A DNA stretch of 64,000 nucleotides, taken from contig NZ_VFOZ01000001.1 in the NCBI RefSeq assembly GCF_006716425.1, positions 124,001-188,000 of the forward strand, written 5' to 3'. Positions 5,127-31,659 of this stretch are shown here, in pieces. The number at the start of each line of letters is the position of its first letter. The stretch's first letter is position 1. The notes under the pieces were generated by a model, which was given only the letters and a program-made list of their open reading frames with translations, did not search any database and had not been told where the DNA came from. The position numbers and the translations under genes are program-made. Origin of the DNA: Actinoallomurus bryophytorum (GTDB lineage: Bacteria; Actinomycetota; Actinomycetes; Streptosporangiales; Streptosporangiaceae).

Positions 5127-5543
5127 GCCGGGTCACCTCGTGTTTCCACTCGATTGAGTCGGACGGCTCGGGAACCTAGCGAGTTCAGGGCCCATAAAGC
5201 AACGTGAAAGCCCGTTTAGCCCGTCATTAAATTGCAGATGTCACTCTATGAGCTGTCCTGAACACGCAGAGTACCCAATCAGGGGGGTTGCTTCACCCCG
5301 AACCGTACGACGGCCTGGCGTTTCTTGCGAGGGGCAAACGGCTCAGTCAAGACGAAACGGCGGCGAAGGGCGATCTGAGAGACACGTTTCGCCGCCGGAA
5401 GGCTCTTCTCGCCCGGGTAACGGCGCCGCGACACGCCGATCTAGCCCGAGCGAGCCACTTCCGGGCCTCCGGGAGGCTCTCCAGCCGCTCTCCGCGAGCG
5501 GATGTGTCGGCAGTTCGCACCCCGCCTGCTCGGCCCGCCCCGG
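5127..5543. other. Gene-free upstream region of mihF
   Basis: Roughly 420 bases hold no supportable gene. The AT-richer stretch at about 5175-5260 (ATTAAATTGCAG and surroundings) is the likeliest promoter region for mihF, but I could not assign -35/-10 elements with confidence. Confidence 0.5.
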
Positions 5544-5712
5544 TACGGCGGCGGGGTACGGCGGCGGGGTACGGCGGCGGGGTACGGCGGCGGGGTACGG
5601 CGGCGGGGTACGGCGGCGGGGTACGGCGGCGGGGTACGGCGGCGGGGTACGGCGGCGGGGTACGGCGGCGGGGTACGGCGGCGGGGTACGGCGGCGGGGT
5701 ACGGCGGCGGGG
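5544..5712. repeat. 13 perfect copies of a 13-bp tandem repeat
   Basis: The unit TACGGCGGCGGGG is repeated 13 times without a mismatch, and a partial copy starts at 5713. The unit length is not a multiple of three, so all frames stay open through it and give periodic 13-residue peptides; these are not genes. It abuts the 8-bp array that follows. Confidence 0.97.
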
Positions 5713-5715
5713 TAC

Positions 5716-6059
5716 GGCACTCCGGCACTCCGGCACTCCGGCACTCCGGCACTCCGGCACTCCGGCACTCCGGCACTCCGGCACTCCGGCACTCCGGCAC
5801 TCCGGCACTCCGGCACTCCGGCACTCCGGCACTCCGGCACTCCGGCACTCCGGCACTCCGGCACTCCGGCACTCCGGCACTCCGGCACTCCGGCACTCCG
5901 GCACTCCGGCACTCCGGCACTCCGGCACTCCGGCACTCCGGCACTCCGGCACTCCGGCACTCCGGCACTCCGGCACTCCGGCACTCCGGCACTCCGGCAC
6001 TCCGGCACTCCGGCACTCCGGCACTCCGGCACTCCGGCACTCCGGCACTCCGGCACTCC
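5716..6059. repeat. 43 perfect copies of an 8-bp tandem repeat
   Basis: The unit GGCACTCC is repeated 43 times with no visible mismatch over 344 bases, directly after the 13-bp array. Perfect identity over so many copies implies recent expansion or ongoing slippage. Copy number in the live genome may differ from this assembly. Confidence 0.97.
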
Positions 6060-6064
6060 GGCAC

Positions 6065-23796: not shown

Positions 23797-24354
23797 CCCG
23801 CGCGCCGTCCAGTCGCACCGGAAGCCGGGAACGGTGCCCATGGTCGGTCTCGGGCCGGTCGGTCTCGGGCCGGTCGGTCTCGGGCCGGTCGGTCTCGGGC
23901 CGGTCGGTCTCGGGCCGGTCGGTCTCGGGCCGGTCGGTCTCGGGCCGGTCGGTCTCGGGCCGGTCGGTCTCGGGCCGGTCGGTCTCGGGCCGGTCGGTCT
24001 CGGGCCGGTCGGTCTCGGGCCGGTCCGTCCCCGCCGGTCCGTCCCCGCCCGCCCTGGGGGCGCCAGCCCACTCCTATCCTTCCGACCTGCGGGTTTGCGG
24101 GGCAAGAGGTTCCGGGATGCTGTGGAAAACTCGCGCCGAGCCCAGGCCGGGGCGACCCGGCGCCTCGCGAGCTTCCGGCCCGCGGCGGCGGTGTTCTCGT
24201 GCGGCCGGGAGGCCAGGCGGTTTCGGTTAGCGGCTGCACCCCATGTGACGTGCGGTAGGACCGTAATTCGATGCGGATTCGGCCATGCAGACACGGGCGA
24301 CGCAGGGTGGTACAACGGTCACCTGAGGCTCGAGCGCACTCTCCGGAGCGGCCC
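23797..24354. other. Gene-free region with tandem array
   Basis: It contains the 15-bp array at 23842-24021, two 14-bp GGTCCGTCCCCGCC copies after it, and then about 300 bases with no gene or clear promoter that I can support. Confidence 0.6.
23842..24021. repeat. 12 perfect copies of a 15-bp tandem repeat
   Basis: The unit GGTCGGTCTCGGGCC is repeated 12 times with no mismatch, followed by two copies of a 14-bp relative. The unit is a multiple of three, so on the + strand it would encode repeated VGLGP, but no start, ribosome site or downstream family resemblance supports translation. Confidence 0.95.
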
Positions 24355-25431
24355 ATGGCTGGACAGGAAAATCTGCGTGCCGCCGCCGCGCGCGACAAGG
24401 ATTTCGTCGGCCTGGACATCGACGCGATGGCGCAGCTCATCCATCAGATGGGTGGCGCCTCCAATGCCATCTCCGCGTGGTTGCGTACCAACGGGACACT
24501 GCCCCCCAGCGTGCCGCGTACCGGGCTCCGTCAGGCCGCGGCCGTGCACACCTGGGTCAGCGGGCAGTCCGGGATGCTGACCAGGCGCCGCAACTACGCC
24601 ATCACCCACCTCAGCAAGGGCGGCCATCCGATGCCGCACGTCAGCGCGGGCGGGTTCGGCGGGGGGCGGCACCGTACGACGGCGGTGGGGGCTGGGCGGC
24701 ATACCGGCAACTTCGCGGACGTTCACGCGGCGTTGAAGGCCGGGGCCGCCGACGCGTCGGCCATTCGCACGGCGGGCGAGGCGCACCATCCCGTTCCGGC
24801 CGCGGTCTGGAAGCGACTGGCCGCCAACGCCGACGACCCCGACTACGCACATGGGATGTACGACCGGCTCGGGCCGGCCGGCACCGCGCGGCTGATCAAG
24901 GCGGCGCTGGCGGACAAGGCGCACCTGAAGACGGTCGAGACCTCGCTGGGCGTCGCCAGCCACCACATGACGATGAACGAGAAGTGGCTGCGCGAAATGC
25001 TCGACGAGGCACGCCGCGCCGGCGTACGCGACGATGCCGTGCACGTCCTGGCCCAGGCCGGCCTCGGCCATCGTGCACGGGTCGCGCTCGGCCACCTCGG
25101 CCTGACCGAGATGGTCGGCGCACACCCGGAGCCGCCCCGATCCGGCGGCGCGGAGACTCCCCCGCCTCAGCACCTGATCCCGGCACCGCGGCCGCCGCAC
25201 GAGGCGATGATCACGCCCGCGGCGGACGACCCCCACGCCGCCGTCGAGCTGTACTCCCGCCATCCCGAGACCCTTCACCGGGCGCTGGAGGGCTGGCCGC
25301 GTTCCGAGGCACTCGCCCGCCTGGTCACCCACGCCACCACCGCCCACGACGCCGACCCGGCCGCCGTACGGGCGAACGCCGAACGCCTCGCCGGCTTCCA
25401 TGCCACCCGCCCATCCGGAACCCCGGCGTGA
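24355..25431 (+). CDS. Hypothetical protein with WXG-like N-terminal region
   Basis: I do not recognise the family. The ATG at 24355 follows GGAG by 6 bases and gives 358 residues. The first 90 residues are helical (DAMAQLIHQMGGASNAISAW) and resemble the size of ESX/WXG domains. A Gly/His-rich linker (AGGFGGGRHRTTAVGAGRH) leads to a helical repeat-like region, and the C-terminal 100 residues are Pro/Ala/His-rich. There is no signal peptide. It leads a set of overlapping genes, the third of which is WXG100-like, so a role in a type VII-linked system is possible but not shown. Confidence 0.7.
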   Translation: MAGQENLRAAAARDKDFVGLDIDAMAQLIHQMGGASNAISAWLRTNGTLPPSVPRTGLRQAAAVHTWVSGQSGMLTRRRNYAITHLSKGGHPMPHVSAGGFGGGRHRTTAVGAGRHTGNFADVHAALKAGAADASAIRTAGEAHHPVPAAVWKRLAANADDPDYAHGMYDRLGPAGTARLIKAALADKAHLKTVETSLGVASHHMTMNEKWLREMLDEARRAGVRDDAVHVLAQAGLGHRARVALGHLGLTEMVGAHPEPPRSGGAETPPPQHLIPAPRPPHEAMITPAADDPHAAVELYSRHPETLHRALEGWPRSEALARLVTHATTAHDADPAAVRANAERLAGFHATRPSGTPA

Positions 25432-25550
25432 ACCCCGGCCCGACCGCTCCCGGCGAGCCGCGTTCCGACGCGCCGCCAGCGGGCGACGGCGAGAGATGGA
25501 GACCCGCCGGGGATCACCAGGCCGCGGGCGACGAGAAGACCCGCGTATGA
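25428..25550 (+). CDS. Small coupled ORF (40 aa), hypothetical
   Basis: Its GTG overlaps the stop of the 358-residue gene (GTGA), and its TGA overlaps the ATG of the WXG-like gene (ATGA). The product is Pro/Gly/Asp-rich (GPTAPGEPRSDAPPAGDG) and probably disordered. Support is the double overlap only; it may simply be a translational bridge. Confidence 0.4.
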   Translation: MNPGPTAPGEPRSDAPPAGDGERWRPAGDHQAAGDEKTRV

Positions 25551-25864
25551 GCACCTACCCGCCCTCGCCGGGCACGTTGCGGTCACCCTCCGACCCGCCA
25601 CCCGCCGGCGATACCCAGCGTCCCAATCCCGAATACGCCGACCTCTACCAGGCCTATCAGCGAGCGTTCGAGAGCGCCCACACGCTGGAGAAGGCGCTCG
25701 ACCCTCCCGTACGCACCGCCGGTGACGCCTGGGTCGGGCCCGCCGCTCGCGGCTGGCAGAACGATCTGGAGACACAGCGTGGCGAGCTGAAGAAGGCGGC
25801 GACGCAGATTCTGTGGGACATTTACGGCGCACTCTCGAAGGTTCCGCCGTTCATTCCCAAGTGA
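25547..25864 (+). CDS. WXG100-like small helical protein
   Basis: The 105-residue product has a Pro-rich head, then two predicted helices around a W-x-G-like turn (AGDAWVGPAARGWQNDL), the ESX/WXG100 pattern. It lacks an obvious C-terminal YxxxD/E secretion tag (tail SKVPPFIPK). It sits between the unrecognised 358-residue gene and a GNAT gene with 4-base overlaps. No EccC/EccD or other type VII machinery is in the window. Confidence 0.65.
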   Translation: MSTYPPSPGTLRSPSDPPPAGDTQRPNPEYADLYQAYQRAFESAHTLEKALDPPVRTAGDAWVGPAARGWQNDLETQRGELKKAATQILWDIYGALSKVPPFIPK

Positions 25865-26457
25865 GGCACGTGAGACCAGCATTCAGGGCACGCCGTGAGG
25901 CCGCGCCGCAGATTCGTGAGATCGACCGCCGCGGGTTCCTGCGACGTCTCGACGTACTCCTGGCCACGTACGAGGCGGCCATGCTCCCCCCGCCAGAGCA
26001 GATGCCCGGCCGGCACATGATCATGGAGCGGCACGCCGGCCATCCCGCGTTCCGTGCGTTCGTCGCGGAGCGTGGGCGGACCGTCGTGGGTTTCGGTTAT
26101 GGGTTCCACGGCGAGGCCGGGCAGTGGTGGCACGATGTCGTACGCGGCCAGCTCGGCAAGACCGGTGGGGATGCGCACGCCCGGCACTGGCTGGACGACA
26201 CCTGGGAGGTGGCCGAGCTGCACGTGCACCCGTCCGCGCAGGGGCGAGGGCTCGGCCGTGGGCTGATCACCTCACTGTGCGCCGACCGGCCCGAGCGTAC
26301 GGTCGTGCTGTCCACGCTCGACGCGCAGACCCCGGCCCGCAAGCTCTACGGCTCCCTGGGTCTGACCGACCTGATAACCGGCTTCCGGTTCCCCGGCGGC
26401 GGCCCCCTCTACGCCGTGATGGGCGCCGAGCTGCCGCTGAGCTCCAAGCGCGAGTAG
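25861..26457 (+). CDS. GNAT-family N-acetyltransferase
   Basis: This protein is a putative acetyltransferase with unknown target. The GTG at 25861 overlaps the previous stop (GTGA) and gives 198 residues; a GTG at 25870 is an alternative. The acetyl-CoA motif A is intact: VAELHVHPSAQGRGLGRGL with QGRGLG. The last codons and stop lie inside the 43-bp direct repeat shared with metF, which suggests its 3' end originally overlapped the metF 3' end convergently. Confidence 0.88.
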   Translation: MRHVRPAFRARREAAPQIREIDRRGFLRRLDVLLATYEAAMLPPPEQMPGRHMIMERHAGHPAFRAFVAERGRTVVGFGYGFHGEAGQWWHDVVRGQLGKTGGDAHARHWLDDTWEVAELHVHPSAQGRGLGRGLITSLCADRPERTVVLSTLDAQTPARKLYGSLGLTDLITGFRFPGGGPLYAVMGAELPLSSKRE

Positions 26458-26491
26458 ACCTCGCTCGTCGCCGTCGACTTGTTGAACGTGA
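26449..26491. repeat. Left attachment-site copy (putative attL)
   Basis: The sequence begins CGCGAGTAGACCTCGCTCG and ends TTGTTGAACGTGA, and is identical over 43 bases to 28506-28548. Similarity continues imperfectly for about 20 bases to its left (GAGCTCC... against GATCTCC...), consistent with two related versions of a metF end. Confidence 0.8.
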
Positions 26492-26618
26492 ACCGCGTCC
26501 GCCACCTGCGGCGCCCGGCGCCCGCTAGCCGCTGCCACGAGCAGTTGCCATTGGTCGTTGCCGGTCACCCCTGGCCTGGTCGCAGCCGGCACCGGCGTCT
26601 CGGCGAGCGGGCCGGTCT

Positions 26619-28193
26619 TCAGCGTGGGCTGAGTCCTTCGATCACCGCGCGCGGCAGGTAGCCGGACTCGACCCGCACCGGGATGCCTCGGTCGTGGGCG
26701 AGGCAGGCCAGTCCGAGCGCGTCGAAGGAGAGCTGCCCGTCCGGGTCGTCGATGCGGTCGCCCGCGCTGTAGTAGTCGCGGTAGAGGCCGAGAGCGTCGG
26801 CGAGGACGGCGTTGAAGCCGTCCGCGTCGTCATCGGCGATGCGCTCCAGCAGCCGGGCGCGGGGGTCGCGCAGGCACTCCCAGTGCTCGTCGCCGGAGGT
26901 CTTGGCCAGCGCCTTCCGCAGATGCGGACGCGGGTCCTGTCCGCGCAGGACGGCGTGGCACGCGTGCGCGTAGGAGTTCGTGTCCGGAATCGTGGAGTGA
27001 AGGTCGCCGGCGTTGAACGCGGCCAGGATCGCGATGTCCGCCTGCCTGCGGGACGTCCATGCCAGCGCGGCGGCCCGCGCGTAGGTCCAGTCGGAGGCGT
27101 CGCTGTTCGGCCCGGACGCGGGCAGTTCCGCGGTGCGTCCGCCCAGCGTGACGGCGATCGCAGTGCCGCGCGGGGCCGAAGCCAGCCGGAACGCCGACGC
27201 GAACGACTCGCTCGCCAGGACCAGCCCGTCGGTGTACACGGCGCTCTCGGCGCGCGGGTCCAGCACGGAGCGGAACGACAGCGCCATCATCATGTGCTCC
27301 CCGGGATCGGCCATCGCCGAGAACCGGTACTGGATGAGCACTTCCGGGTCGAACGCGAACTCCACCTTCCGTTCGGAACGCTTGCCGGCGTTCTCCAGCC
27401 AGCGGGCGGCGCGGTCGCCGTCGAAGCCGGGGCGGGCGATCGCGCCGTCCGCGCTCGGCTTCTTGGGCCCAGCGCGCGTGAACAGCCGCTCGGGAAGGTA
27501 GCCGGACTCGACCTCAATCGGCAGCTCGGTCTCGTGCGCGAGCGTGGCCATGGCCAGCGGTCCCCAGGCGATCAGGTCACGCGGGTACCTCCCGGCCCGC
27601 TCGCGGTGCTGCTCCAGCGTCGCGGCCAGAGCGGCGTTGAACGCGACGGCGTCGCCTTGGGCGATCGCGCGCAGCATCCGGCCCTCGGGGGAGTCCGGGT
27701 AGGTCTCGGCGGGCTGTTTCGCCCAGAAGGCGCGAAGGCCTTGAAGGTCGTCGTCCTCGGGCAGGGACTGGACCAGCGGGTAGAGGCCGAGCAGGACGTC
27801 GTCCTTCCCGACGGCGAGCGCCACCTGGTAGGCCCAGACCCAGTCGTGCACACTCAGGCTCTCGTCCCGCTCCTGCAGGAAGCCGAACCCGACGCCCAGG
27901 TAGTCGACGAAGGCGCGGACCTCCCCGCCGGCCGGGACGGTCCGGGCGCGCGCATAGTCCCGGTACAGCGACGCGGCCGAGGTCAGCGCGAGCCAGGTCT
28001 CCCGGGTCTCGACGCGCGGGTCGATCTCGACGGTGCGCGCCGCCGCGTAGTCCAGCAGCATGTCGGCGAGCATCTCGATGCCGAACGGGCCGCCGTTCTC
28101 GGCGAGCTTGGCGTCCCGGCCCAGCCGCTCGGGGACGGCCGCCAGGGCAAACGCGAGGGACTCTTCGGAAATGCTGTGACGATCAACGCGCAT
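26619..28193 (-). CDS. Imm49-like double-domain immunity protein
   Basis: The 524-residue protein contains two related halves, each ending in the Imm49-type tail: LAMATLAHETELPIEVESGY (about residue 205-240) and LGLACLAHDRGIPVRVESGY (near the C-terminus), both followed by LP. Imm49 proteins neutralise effectors of polymorphic toxin systems; single-domain members are about half this length, so this is a tandem fusion. No Shine-Dalgarno sequence is present: TACGAT sits 8 bases before the ATG at 28193, suggesting a leaderless mRNA. No toxin gene is adjacent, so it may be an orphan immunity gene carried by the decayed element. Confidence 0.65.
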   Translation of the reverse strand: MRVDRHSISEESLAFALAAVPERLGRDAKLAENGGPFGIEMLADMLLDYAAARTVEIDPRVETRETWLALTSAASLYRDYARARTVPAGGEVRAFVDYLGVGFGFLQERDESLSVHDWVWAYQVALAVGKDDVLLGLYPLVQSLPEDDDLQGLRAFWAKQPAETYPDSPEGRMLRAIAQGDAVAFNAALAATLEQHRERAGRYPRDLIAWGPLAMATLAHETELPIEVESGYLPERLFTRAGPKKPSADGAIARPGFDGDRAARWLENAGKRSERKVEFAFDPEVLIQYRFSAMADPGEHMMMALSFRSVLDPRAESAVYTDGLVLASESFASAFRLASAPRGTAIAVTLGGRTAELPASGPNSDASDWTYARAAALAWTSRRQADIAILAAFNAGDLHSTIPDTNSYAHACHAVLRGQDPRPHLRKALAKTSGDEHWECLRDPRARLLERIADDDADGFNAVLADALGLYRDYYSAGDRIDDPDGQLSFDALGLACLAHDRGIPVRVESGYLPRAVIEGLSPR

Positions 28194-28260
28194 GGGGCGT
28201 GATCGTAGCGACCGTCAGCAGTCCCGGCAGAAAAGGCATCAAGAAGCCCTCCGCTCGCCG

Positions 28261-28368
28261 GGTAGCGATCCGGATACCGGTCGAATCACTTTCGGGCAGT
28301 ACACGGAAAAATGGATCTCCGCCCAAACCACCGACGTAACGTCATGGACGACCACGGTTCGGCGTCAG
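28261..28368 (+). pseudogene. Scrap of a phage-type tyrosine integrase (core-binding domain)
   Basis: One frame reads GSDPDTGRITFGQYTEKWIS then AQTTDVTSWTTTVRRQ. This is the start of the SAM-like core-binding domain found in actinophage tyrosine integrases (RxTFGEYAExWL-type). Neither the N-terminal arm-binding part nor the catalytic R-H-x-x-R-Y domain remains. It lies 138 bases from the right 43-bp repeat, the usual place for an integrase gene beside its att site. Confidence 0.65.
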
Positions 28369-28462
28369 ACGGCCCAGGACTCGCAGGGAAGGTTCGGGCC
28401 GACGGTTCGCATGACCGCCGGCCCAGCCATCGCATGTGCCCGACTGGTGGCCTGAACAGCGC

Positions 28463-29377
28463 TTACGGCACCAACAGGTCGCGACGGCTCCCGCTGATCT
28501 CCAGACGCGAGTAGACCTCGCTCGTCGCCGTCGACTTGTTGAACGTGATGAAGTGGATCCCCGGCACGCCCTCGGCGAGCAGCCGGCGGCACAGCTGCAC
28601 GGCCTGGTCGATGCCGAGGCGGCGTACGGCCTCCGGGTCGTCGCCGACGGCCTCGAACCGCTCCGCCAGCTCCCGCGGGAACGGCGCCCCGGACAGCTGC
28701 TCCGAGCGTTCGATCGTGCTCAGCTGGGTGACCGGCATGATGCCCGGAATGATCGGTACGTCGCAGCCCAGGGCGGCGACGCGGTCGCGCAGCGTCAGGT
28801 AGTCCTCGGCGCGGAAGAACATCTGCGTGATCGCGTAGTCGGCTCCGGCCTCGCATTTGCGCACGAAGTAACGCGTGTCGCTCTCGATGTCCGGAGAACG
28901 CGGGTGTTTGTACGGGAACGCCGCCACCCCGACACTGAAGTCACCCGAGGACTTGATCAGCCGCACGACGTCCTCGGCGTACTCGACACCGGAGGGATGG
29001 CGCACCCACTCCCCCATCGGGTCGCCGGGCGGGTCACCGCGCAGGGCCAGCAGATCGCTGACGCCCGCCGCCGCGAACCTGCCGATGAGCTGGCGCAGCT
29101 CGGCGATCGAGTGGTTGACGGCGGTGAAGTGCGCGACGGGTGTGAGCGTCGTGTCGGTGGCGATCCGCTCGACGATGTCGATGGTGTGATCACGGTTGCC
29201 ACCGCCGGCGCCGTACGTCACGGACACGAAGGTCGGCTGCAGCACCTCGAGGCGCCTGATCGCCTGCCAGAGGTTGCGCGCCCCCTGCTCGGTCTTGGGA
29301 GGGAAGAACTCGAACGAGAACGTCGTCTTTCCGGCGGCGAGGACTTCTCGGATGGTTCGGGGGCGAGCGGCAGTCAT
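28463..29377 (-). CDS. metF: Methylenetetrahydrofolate reductase
   Basis: This flavoenzyme reduces methylene-THF to methyl-THF for methionine synthesis. The ATG at 29377 ([16 protein letters not shown]) gives 304 residues. [18 protein letters not shown] holds the catalytic Glu, and [11 protein letters not shown] is the folate/NADH loop. The final 14 residues after the repeat ([14 protein letters not shown]) are probably supplied by the inserted element. It is divergent from the polyprenyl synthase gene with 49 bases between starts, like the mycobacterial Rv2172c-Rv2173 pair. Confidence 0.95.
28506..28548. repeat. Right attachment-site copy (putative attR), inside metF
   Basis: The copy lies within the metF coding sequence about 14 codons before its stop; on the minus strand it encodes [13 protein letters not shown]. 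It is identical to 26449-26491. Confidence 0.8.
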
Positions 29378-29426
29378 GACCAACAGCGTAACGGGCCGGT
29401 ACGGGCGGACCACTAGTCTCAGGTTC

Positions 29427-30485
29427 GTGGTCGCAAGTCGAATACGCAAAGAGGTCGACGAGGCGCTGTACGCCTTCGTCGACCGCCAGCGCCCCCTGCT
29501 CGACGCCGTCTCCGGTGATCTGGCGCCGATGCTGGCCGCCCTCGACTCACTGCTCTCCGGCGGCAAACGGCTCCGTCCGGAGTTCTGCTACTGGGGCTGG
29601 CGTGGCTCAGGAGGCGAAGATCGCCCGGAGCTCTTCACCGCCGCGGCCTCGCTGGAGCTGCTGCAGGCCGGTGCGCTGATCCACGACGACGTCATGGACG
29701 GCAGCGACACGCGTCGCGGCCAGCCCGCGGCGCACCGGAGGTTCGAGGGGCTGCACGCCGAGTCCGGCTGGCGCGGATCCGCGGAGGCGTTCGGCGCCGG
29801 CGCGGCCATCCTGCTCGGCGATGTGTGCCTGACCTGGTGCGACGAGATGTTCCAGGGCAGCGGACTGCCTGATGAGGCGTTGCGGCGCGGCCGGCCGATC
29901 TTCGACCTGATGCGCACCGAGGTGATGTGCGGTCAGTATCTCGACATGCGCGGCCAGGCGCGGGGTCCCCTGGCGGGCCACGCGATGGTCGAGGAGGCCC
30001 TGCGGATCGTGCGCTTCAAGAGCGCGAAGTACACCATCGAGCGGCCGCTGCAGCTCGGTGCCGCGCTGGCCGGATCGGAGTCCGTGGCGGAGCTCTCGGC
30101 GTACGGGATGCCGCTCGGCATCGCGTTCCAGCTGCGCGATGACGTCCTCGGCGTCTTCGGCGACCCGGCGCAGACCGGCAAGCCGGCAGGCGATGACCTG
30201 CGCGAGGGCAAGCGGACGGTGCTCGTCGCGCTGACCCTGGAGCGGGCGACGACGGCGCAGGCGCAGACCGTGGAGACCCTGCTGGGCGACCCGGCGCTCG
30301 ACCTCGACGGGGTCGAGACGCTCCGCTCGATCATCGTGGCGACCGGCGCGCTGGACGCCTGCGAGAAGATGATCGACGGGTACACCGCGGACGCCGAGGC
30401 GGCACTGGCGGCCGCGCCCCTCGGCGCCGAGGGCCGCGAGGCGCTCTCGGGACTCACCGTCGTCGCGACGGCACGCACTGTTTGA
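29427..30485 (+). CDS. Polyprenyl (geranylgeranyl-type) diphosphate synthase
   Basis: This enzyme condenses isopentenyl diphosphate with allylic diphosphates. The GTG at 29427 ([14 protein letters not shown]) gives 352 residues. The first Asp-rich motif is [15 protein letters not shown] (DDxxD) and the second is [14 protein letters not shown] (DDxxG form). [14 protein letters not shown] is the IPP-binding block. By position next to metF it corresponds to mycobacterial idsA2; chain length cannot be fixed from sequence alone. Confidence 0.93.
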
Positions 30486-30550
30486 GCCGAAGGCGGGCAA
30501 TGTGACCGGCATGAGCGTTCGCCGGACATAACGATCATGCCGGGTTAAGA

Positions 30551-30772
30551 ATGAGGCATGACCGACCGAACGTCAGCATGAGCACCGGCACCAGCATGAG
30601 ACTGGACACCGGAGAGCAGAAGCACGTCACCGAGCGCGAGACCGCAGGTGTACGCACGCGTCCGGCCGCCCGCGCGCCTCGCTTGCGACGTAACCGCCGG
30701 CTGGTCCTCGCGCTGGCGTTGGTGATCCTGGCGGGGTTCCTGCTCGGCCTGGGCCTGCCGATCCACCAGTAG
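30551..30772 (+). CDS. Small single-pass membrane protein, hypothetical
   Basis: The 73-residue frame (possible starts ATG at 30551, 30578 or 30596) has a polar, Arg-rich head (RTRPAARAPRLRRNRR) and one hydrophobic segment LVLALALVILAGFLLGLGLP at the C-terminus. No family is recognised. Arg before the segment predicts an N-in orientation. Confidence 0.55.
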   Translation: MRHDRPNVSMSTGTSMRLDTGEQKHVTERETAGVRTRPAARAPRLRRNRRLVLALALVILAGFLLGLGLPIHQ

Positions 30773-30774
30773 CG

Positions 30775-30939
30775 TCACCAGTGGGGCGGGCGTTCCTCCA
30801 GAAGCCGGGCGTCCTCGTCCACCTGGCGCCACTCGCCCCATCCGGTGTCGGAGTCGTCCCGCGTCTGATCCGGCAGCACGTCCAGCTCGTCGTCGTCGGA
30901 GAGCTCGACGGGGCGCTCGTCGTCAGGATTGCCGATCAT
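30775..30939 (-). CDS. Small acidic conserved protein downstream of thiE
   Basis: The 54-residue product is rich in Asp and Glu (MIGNPDDERPVELSDDDELD) and contains DDSDTGWGEW and the C-terminal RPPHW. I recall similar DDxDxGWGE...PPHW peptides in many actinomycetes; their role is unknown. An in-frame ATG at 30948 is an alternative start. It follows the thiE stop by about 18 bases on the same strand. Confidence 0.7.
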   Translation of the reverse strand: MIGNPDDERPVELSDDDELDVLPDQTRDDSDTGWGEWRQVDEDARLLEERPPHW

Positions 30940-30957
30940 GGACACCATTGTCGCGCA

Positions 30958-31659
30958 TCAGGGTGTGTCTCCCGGGTGAACCGCGGGTGAAAATCGCTCG
31001 TGGCGCAGTCTCCGCGCGAAACCCGCCGCCGCCTCGCGCGGATCCTCGGCCTCGGTGATCGCGCGTACGACCACGACCCGGCTCGCCCCGGCGGCCAGCA
31101 CCTGGTCGAGGTTGTCCAGGCCGATGCCGCCGATCGCGAACCACGGCCGTGCGACCTTGCGGCCGGCCACGTACGAGAGCAGGCCGAGCCCCGGAGCCGG
31201 ACGGCCGGGCTTGGTCGGCGTCGGCCAGGTCGGACCGGTGGCGAAGTAGTCGACGCCGGGCTCGACCGCGGCGGCGGCCGCCTGCTCCTCCGAATGCGTT
31301 GACCGGCCGATGAGGATGTCCTCACCGACGATCGCGCGTGCCTTCCGTACCGGCAGGTCGTCCTGGCCCAGGTGCAGCACGTCGGCGCGTACGGCATGCG
31401 CGATGTCCGCGCGGTCGTTGACCGCGAGGAGCGCGCCGTACCGGTCGCACACGGCGCGGAAGACGGCGAGGTGCTCCAGCTCCTGGCGGGCCTCCAGGCC
31501 CTTCTGCCGGAGCTGGACGATGTCCACGCCGCCGCCCAGCGCCGCGTCGAGGAAGTCCTCCAGGTCGCCCTGGGCCTCACGCGCGTCGGTGCACAGGTAG
31601 AGACGTGCCCGGCCGAGCTTGGCCCGGAGGGCGACCGCCCGGTCAGTGGGAAGACGCAA
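30958..31659 (-). CDS. thiE: Thiamine-phosphate synthase
   Basis: This enzyme joins the thiazole and pyrimidine phosphates to give thiamine phosphate. The TTG at 31659 ([16 protein letters not shown]) follows GAGAGG by 8 bases, giving 233 residues. [21 protein letters not shown] and HLGQDDLPV are family motifs, and [15 protein letters not shown] is the phosphate-binding region. It lies apart from thiOSG, on the opposite strand, with two genes between, and shows no riboswitch of its own. Confidence 0.95.

Follow-up and report, generated by a model that had tools for sequence, protein, structure and literature searches.

Evidence for a decayed integrative element where the 3' ends of metF and a convergent GNAT gene overlap in Actinoallomurus bryophytorum

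Introduction

In the genome of Actinoallomurus bryophytorum (assembly GCF_006716425.1), the gene for methylenetetrahydrofolate reductase, metF, and a convergent gene for a GNAT protein lie on either side of ∼2 kb of DNA that contains a double Imm49 immunity-type gene and is flanked by two copies of a direct repeat. How did this DNA come to be placed at the 3' end of a housekeeping gene? The window analyzed here is a stretch of 64,000 nt (contig NZ_VFOZ01000001.1, positions 124,001 to 188,000 of the forward strand), and all coordinates given below are window positions. An earlier note on this DNA proposed site-specific integration at a gene 3' end, and support for that proposal is provided by an empty site in congeners, by the arms of the attachment (att) sites, by a relic of an integrase gene, and by the intact relatives of that integrase. 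With a probability of roughly 0.93, the locus is the decayed remainder of an element that inserted site-specifically where the 3' ends of metF and the GNAT gene overlap, by means of a tyrosine integrase of the type found in actinomycete integrative and conjugative elements (AICEs).

Results and Discussion

The empty site and the direct repeats

Listed in Table 1 are the features of the locus. When the window is aligned with the corresponding loci of seven congeners, every alignment coming from the GNAT gene breaks off at precisely 26491 and picks up again, towards metF, at 28477-28489; the segment from 26492 to 28486 is absent from all seven. In each of these genomes metF terminates inside the convergent GNAT gene, such that the two genes overlap tail to tail, and a pattern search for the att DNA yields a single match. 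This is the arrangement, with the GNAT gene directly convergent with metF and one copy of the repeat, that the earlier note had anticipated for an empty site.

Table 1. Features of the metF/GNAT locus (window positions)
Feature	Position	Strand	Basis
GNAT gene convergent with metF (start uncertain)	25813..26457	+	stop inside the 43-bp block
Left repeat copy (attL), native end: GNAT stop codon and minus-strand former metF C-terminus	26430..26491		repeat and congener comparison
Identical 43-bp block, left	26449..26491		repeat search
Left end of the insert, unaligned to any congener locus	26492..26593		stretch shared with G003 starts at 26594
Double Imm49 immunity-type gene, 524 aa, open frame	26619..28193	-	PF15575
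Conserved -10-like box TACGAT beside the Imm49 start codon	28202..28207	-	5/5 loci
Relic of tyrosine integrase N-terminal (SAM-like) region, inner junction approximate	28219..28365	+	E 2.2e-8, 55% over 38 aa
3' end of the same integrase gene, same frame after internal deletion of ∼300 codons, stop codon lost	28366..28380	+	relatives
Terminator-like hairpin, as after the integrase stop in relatives	28396..28424	+	comparison with relatives
metF (methylenetetrahydrofolate reductase), 304 aa	28463..29377	-	MTHFR E 9.5e-102; TIGR00676
metF 3' end replaced by the element: 13 residues and stop codon (28463-28465)	28463..28505	-	congener comparison
Right repeat copy (attR), within the metF 3' end	28487..28548		repeat and congener comparison
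Identical 43-bp block, right	28506..28548		repeat search
Heptamer CTTGTTG, candidate crossover core, position 73 from the metF stop	28535..28541	+	other copy 26478-26484

The 43-bp direct repeat had been described as perfect, and its two copies are indeed exact. They form part of a 62-nt repeat with 94% identity, and the span from repeat to repeat is 2,057 bp. When the window was simulated 30 times with an order-2 Markov model, the longest exact repeats measured 16-21 nt; further long exact repeats are present in the window itself, the first of those listed belonging to a tandem array. The presence of the 43 bp in many unrelated places had been named as an argument for ordinary duplication, and in the whole 9.47-Mb genome the sequence occurs in two places only.

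Of the 62 nt past the 43-bp block on the native-tail side, 50-54 are shared between the left copy and the congeners and 24-28 between the right copy and the congeners. On the metF side it is the right copy that resembles them, at 32-38 of 40 nt, the value for the left copy being 9-14 of 40. This reciprocal pattern, in which the left copy is congener-like on the GNAT side only and the right copy on the metF side only, is the one expected of attL and attR. The direct repeats are hybrids of chromosome and element, as in a site-specifically integrated element. Read on the minus strand, the left copy does encode a metF C-terminus, as had been claimed, and that C-terminus is the native metF tail. 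The suggestion that the target end was rebuilt by element sequence likewise holds, for the right copy leads into a new 13-residue tail with its own stop codon, and the MTHFR family match stops at residue 292 of 304, which is the start of the replaced tail. Over the first 19 nt, the new tail agrees with the congeners at 14-17 positions and the native tail at 13-18. The replaced MetF tail is probably functional.

An ordinary duplication of a segment from the metF end, or a long target-site duplication accompanying an insert, would need no site-specific recombinase, and a direct repeat of 43-62 bp is by itself compatible with either, as is an integrase relic that matches no profile. Duplication predicts, however, a random distribution of differences between the copies, and all four mismatches of the 62-mer fall within its first 19 positions (0.7% by chance). 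In addition, the tail beyond differs and ends at a stop codon of its own, and the integrase relic, complete with 3' end and hairpin, is positioned at the expected end of the insert. An origin by duplication is thus considered highly improbable.

The integrase relic and its intact relatives

The scrap of tyrosine integrase mentioned in the earlier note could be identified by way of its intact relatives. With the 57-aa scrap as the query, matches at E ≤ 0.01 were obtained in 22 of 341 genomes of the family, its own included, the best other match (E 2.2e-8) being located in a 427-aa frame. Fourteen other matching frames were read, and the four that were tested all proved to be integrases with both PF00589 and PF14659 (SAM-like domain). 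Searches of plasmids and phages with the scrap gave no match. Positions 28366-28381 are identical to the integrase 3' end of locus L098 (16 of 16 nt), and a similar hairpin follows the integrase stop in L077, L098, L100, and L101. A second piece of integrase in another frame, at 28424-28456, was considered and rejected; the stretch represents the spacer past the integrase end and the hairpin. In the comparison that had suggested this second piece, a reversed-sequence control gave E-values that, among the matches listed, reached 1e-4 (L080, in a frame that includes upstream sequence) and 5e-4 (L084), and weak matches from that comparison were left unused.

Six loci containing relatives of the integrase were fetched, one of which lies on a contig that ends 32 nt past the integrase, leaving five with a readable right flank. 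The convergent 3' end of a glutamine synthetase gene faces the integrase in four of these (L098, L100, L101, and L102), and a Smr-domain gene does so in the fifth (L099). No tRNA was found in the six loci. In the two genomes that were searched for a duplicate, the glutamine synthetase end proved to be present twice: the copies share 84 nt at 94% and lie 20.7 kb apart, start to start, in G207, and share 83 nt at 98% and lie 22.4 kb apart in G277. The two copies encode the same protein tail in each genome, the differences being silent, and the mismatches in G207 leave just a 21-nt exact run beside the boundary, which points to the crossover. In both genomes tested, an element with this integrase family is inserted in the 3' end of a protein-coding gene, with duplication of that end.

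The G207 element encodes FtsK-gamma, Prim-Pol, and WhiB proteins, and in L098 the genes for a DUF3631 protein, an HTH_17 protein, and the integrase stand in a row. DUF3631 and Prim-Pol are described as AICE replication modules in PMC3218068. Given integrase relatives in the 3' ends of protein-coding genes and one element with AICE genes, the window is taken to hold the decayed remains of an element from an AICE-type lineage; the relic is homologous to the integrases of elements that carry such genes. The parent element was presumably a full AICE.

The right end of the insert

As can be seen from the spacing, the right end of the insert is laid out as in several of the relatives. The distance from the integrase stop to the target stop is 80 nt at metF (counting the lost stop), 80 nt in L098, 76 nt in L100, and 77 nt in L101. 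In addition, the heptamer CTTGTTG is found at the same position from the stop, 73, in the glutamine synthetase ends of L098, L100, and L101, and it occurs in metF of five of the seven congeners. The three glutamine synthetases are, to judge from their likeness, one target, and the heptamer thus counts as one independent coincidence. A 7-nt run within 2 nt of the same offset was observed in 229 of 50,000 random window pieces, in a test devised after the heptamer had been noticed. CTTGTTG is a candidate for the crossover core.

These right-end features bear on a second alternative, namely that a circular molecule with a piece of metF came in through a RecA-type single crossover over short homology, the integrase relic being incidental. 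A single crossover yields the same flanking repeats. Yet 43 bp is short for homologous recombination, and the right end has a layout and spacing in common with the relatives in glutamine synthetase. This scenario is given scant credence.

For the favored site-specific integration, the following course of events can be envisaged. The element would have entered the overlapping 3' ends of metF and the convergent GNAT gene by site-specific recombination, with the crossover inside the 43-bp block. In the process metF would have gained an element-borne 3' end and stop codon, and the GNAT gene would have retained its own end because its stop lies within the 43-bp block. Later deletions would have removed the rest of the element along with the middle of the integrase gene, the remainder being attL, the double Imm49 gene, both integrase ends with the hairpin, and attR. 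The locus then provides a worked case of two overlapping convergent genes that are each left with a complete end. It is conceivable, if rather doubtful, that the integrase lineage is retargetable, a short core (CTTGTTG, Asn-Lys codons of the target on the other strand) picking out the 3' ends of housekeeping genes from position 73 before the stop, in glutamine synthetase and metF alike, and an element-borne replacement tail of fixed length preserving the enzyme. Were this so, the overlap of two convergent genes would have been chosen at metF and both genes spared.

Several observations weigh against a decayed AICE-type element. The integrase scrap alone is recognized by none of Pfam, NCBIfam, and PHROGs, and the first ∼45 residues of the relic are unrecognizable. 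An AICE has an intact tyrosine or serine integrase, and here just the two ends of the gene remain. There is no replication, transfer, or excision gene left; in the 2.06-kb insert neither an AICE replication protein (RepSA, RepAM, or Prim-Pol) nor an FtsK/SpoIIIE-type transfer protein was found, only the Imm49 gene and the relic. The spacing at the right end is 139 nt in L099 (Smr gene) and 113 nt in L102 (glutamine synthetase), and neither of these targets contains CTTGTTG within its first 140 nt. No such integrase was located within 10-19 kb of the Imm49 relatives in nine of ten other genomes (G272 was left out), in a search of 10 loci, two of them from one genome, in which the positive controls were recovered. 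Finally, the search for intact elements at the metF end that the earlier note had called for found none at any metF in the genomes examined, which comprised those of the family and a sample of the class.

In that search, the att pattern was present in 113 of the 341 family genomes, with two copies in the A. bryophytorum genome only, and 337 of the 341 had a match to a profile built from the metF C-terminus. Multi-match genomes were pursued in all eight cases outside genus g71 and in seven of 33 inside it (G154 among them), 26 being left out. In those examined, second matches either covered the whole profile in long frames or were weak matches to positions 2-30, and a match to the tail alone (profile positions 30-45) was confined to the A. 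bryophytorum genome. In the class sample the metF profile matched 255 of 296 genomes, and all 19 others with two matches were examined. For 18 of them the second match takes in almost the full profile and lies in a frame of between 291 and 1171 aa, most likely that of a paralogue, and for G429 it results from an overlap of contig edges (186 bp at 98.9%). Only the best candidates per genome were scored, such that short copies of a divergent metF may be missed. The att pattern had no match in viral contigs, and the 62-nt right copy gave a single weak match among phages, to a Burkholderia phage, and none in plasmids.

The double Imm49 gene

The HMM comparison of the 524-aa protein with Imm49 gave a match to PF15575 with an E-value of 4.9e-47 and a score of 160.8 bits (cut-off 30.1). 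Profile positions 15-216 of 217, nearly an entire Imm49 domain, are matched by the C-terminal half and the last third only (143-217) by the N-terminal half, and the two halves are 38% identical over 81 aa. The two Imm49-type ends noticed earlier thus belong to a true double Imm49 gene, which resembles the family in a match far above the cut-off and differs from it in that the domain ends twice within one protein. According to the part of Zhang et al. (2012, PMC3482391) drawn upon here, Imm49 is all-alpha and is linked to Tox-REase-1 and Tox-REase-6. The gene may still protect against a nuclease-type toxin. In the neighboring open reading frames (ORFs) tested (24271-25431 and 25547-25864) no toxin was recognized, the search for toxins not having been extended to the window or the genome. 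The gene had also been called leaderless; in each of the five loci compared, the ATG is preceded at a distance of 8 nt by TACGAT or TACCAT, and this promoter-like box next to the start codon is in keeping with a leaderless gene, although it falls short of proof.

Strong relatives (E ≤ 1e-60) are present in 11 of the 341 family genomes, its own included, and in two of the eight in the genus. The copy in the congener G003 resides at a different locus and is 94.4% identical in DNA over 1,638 nt. For the Imm49 gene, dS amounts to 0.082 in the comparison with G003 and to 0.152 in that with Actinomadura sp. 6K520, and dN/dS to G003 is 0.58. Comparison of the value of 0.082 with that of metF in the same two genomes, 0.478, indicates that the Imm49 gene moves horizontally and is still open. 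It can thus be viewed as a horizontally exchanged immunity-type gene that has stayed open amid the decay of the element. The G003 gene was considered as a further copy of the element and rejected, there being no such integrase and no tRNA in 19 kb and the att pattern occurring in that genome at metF only. Actinomadura rupiterrae (L093:6001-9110, L132) has a tandem pair of double Imm49 genes, whose products show 64% and 46% identity to the protein encoded in the window.

The gene may have arrived as cargo, as the earlier note supposed. An immunity-type gene does lie inside the insert, but around its relatives in the other genomes compared no tie to this class of element was seen. Alternatively, the element was as described above and the Imm49 gene was a later arrival in its relic, never having been cargo. 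This deserves serious consideration, even if it is not the expected outcome: the Imm49 relatives stand in nine other contexts without such integrases, and the sequence in common with G003 has its limits at 26594 and 28231, within the att sites and approximately where the integrase relic begins. Against it, no repeat of at least 18 nt, among the repeats listed, bounds the gene on its own, and the end of such an element away from the integrase is a usual place for cargo.

Comparison with known elements

In the available portion of a Streptomyces survey (PMC9513070), the insertion sites comprise 36 tRNA genes, 14 protein-coding genes, and one intergenic site. Protein-coding genes, at 14 of 51 sites, are on that count less rare as targets than the earlier note had held in calling them much rarer than tRNA genes. 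For AICE integrases, the part of PMC3218068 consulted gives tRNA targets for the vast majority, the pSLS subfamily excepted. Islands often reconstitute the genes that they enter, as stated in a passage of PMC12884075.

At a glycosyltransferase gene, the same portion of PMC9513070 describes AICEs in decay, their integrases truncated, that retain cargo and a pair of direct repeats. The locus described here is like them in its direct repeats, truncated integrase, cargo, protein-coding target, and empty sites in relatives. It is unlike them in that an intact element was found at the same site there and the target gene is another one, whereas here the integrase gene has lost its middle but retains its two ends, and the gene left over is a double Imm49 gene. 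The closest parallels are the glutamine synthetase elements of G207 and G277, which share the integrase family, the orientation to the convergent gene, the duplicated end, the right-end spacing, and the heptamer; they differ in their lengths (20.7 and 22.4 kb), their full-length integrase frames, and their target. At L123 (G277:C1:1730832-1734672), adjoining the integrase of the bounded element, a 76-aa HTH gene occurs three times, ∼1.8 kb apart, with a 358-aa gene between; the triplet may be real or an assembly effect.

Plasmid NZ_CP107792.1 of Streptomyces sp. NBC_00562 (L124) is a circular molecule of 18.4 kb that carries genes for FtsK, Prim-Pol, NUDIX, HTH, and integrase proteins, and its integrase is 60% identical to that of L077, the nearest intact relative of the relic. 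Unlike the window element it is circular and, by eye, has no metF-like end after the integrase. The plasmid resembles the excised form of an AICE.

Decayed AICEs of this type have thus been published, and metF as a target was not found in the literature searched. Among the papers listed, neither metF nor glutamine synthetase turned up as an integration site in searches that were largely by title and did not cover supplementary tables, and "metF" is absent from the main text of PMC12884075, PMC3218068, and PMC9513070, whose supplementary tables may name it. With the present locus, metF joins the protein-coding genes whose 3' ends serve as attachment sites, and it is linked to an integrase lineage that also faces glutamine synthetase and Smr-domain genes. 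Gene ends of this sort could serve as landing sites in actinomycete genetics.

The surrounding window

The ORFs at 24271-25431 and 25547-25864, which are WXG100-like by eye and have no Pfam match, had been regarded as the neighborhood of the cargo. They occupy the same place in the congeners, and alignment with these shows them to be ancestral flank instead. Directly ahead of the conserved ORF at 24271 is a tandem array of a 15-bp unit (12.5 copies, 99%, 23842-24029). A search for RNA families within 24000-31000 found none. Two perfect tandem arrays abut one another at 5542-6064, the first with 13.6 copies of a 13-bp unit and the second with 43.8 copies of the 8-bp unit CGGCACTC.

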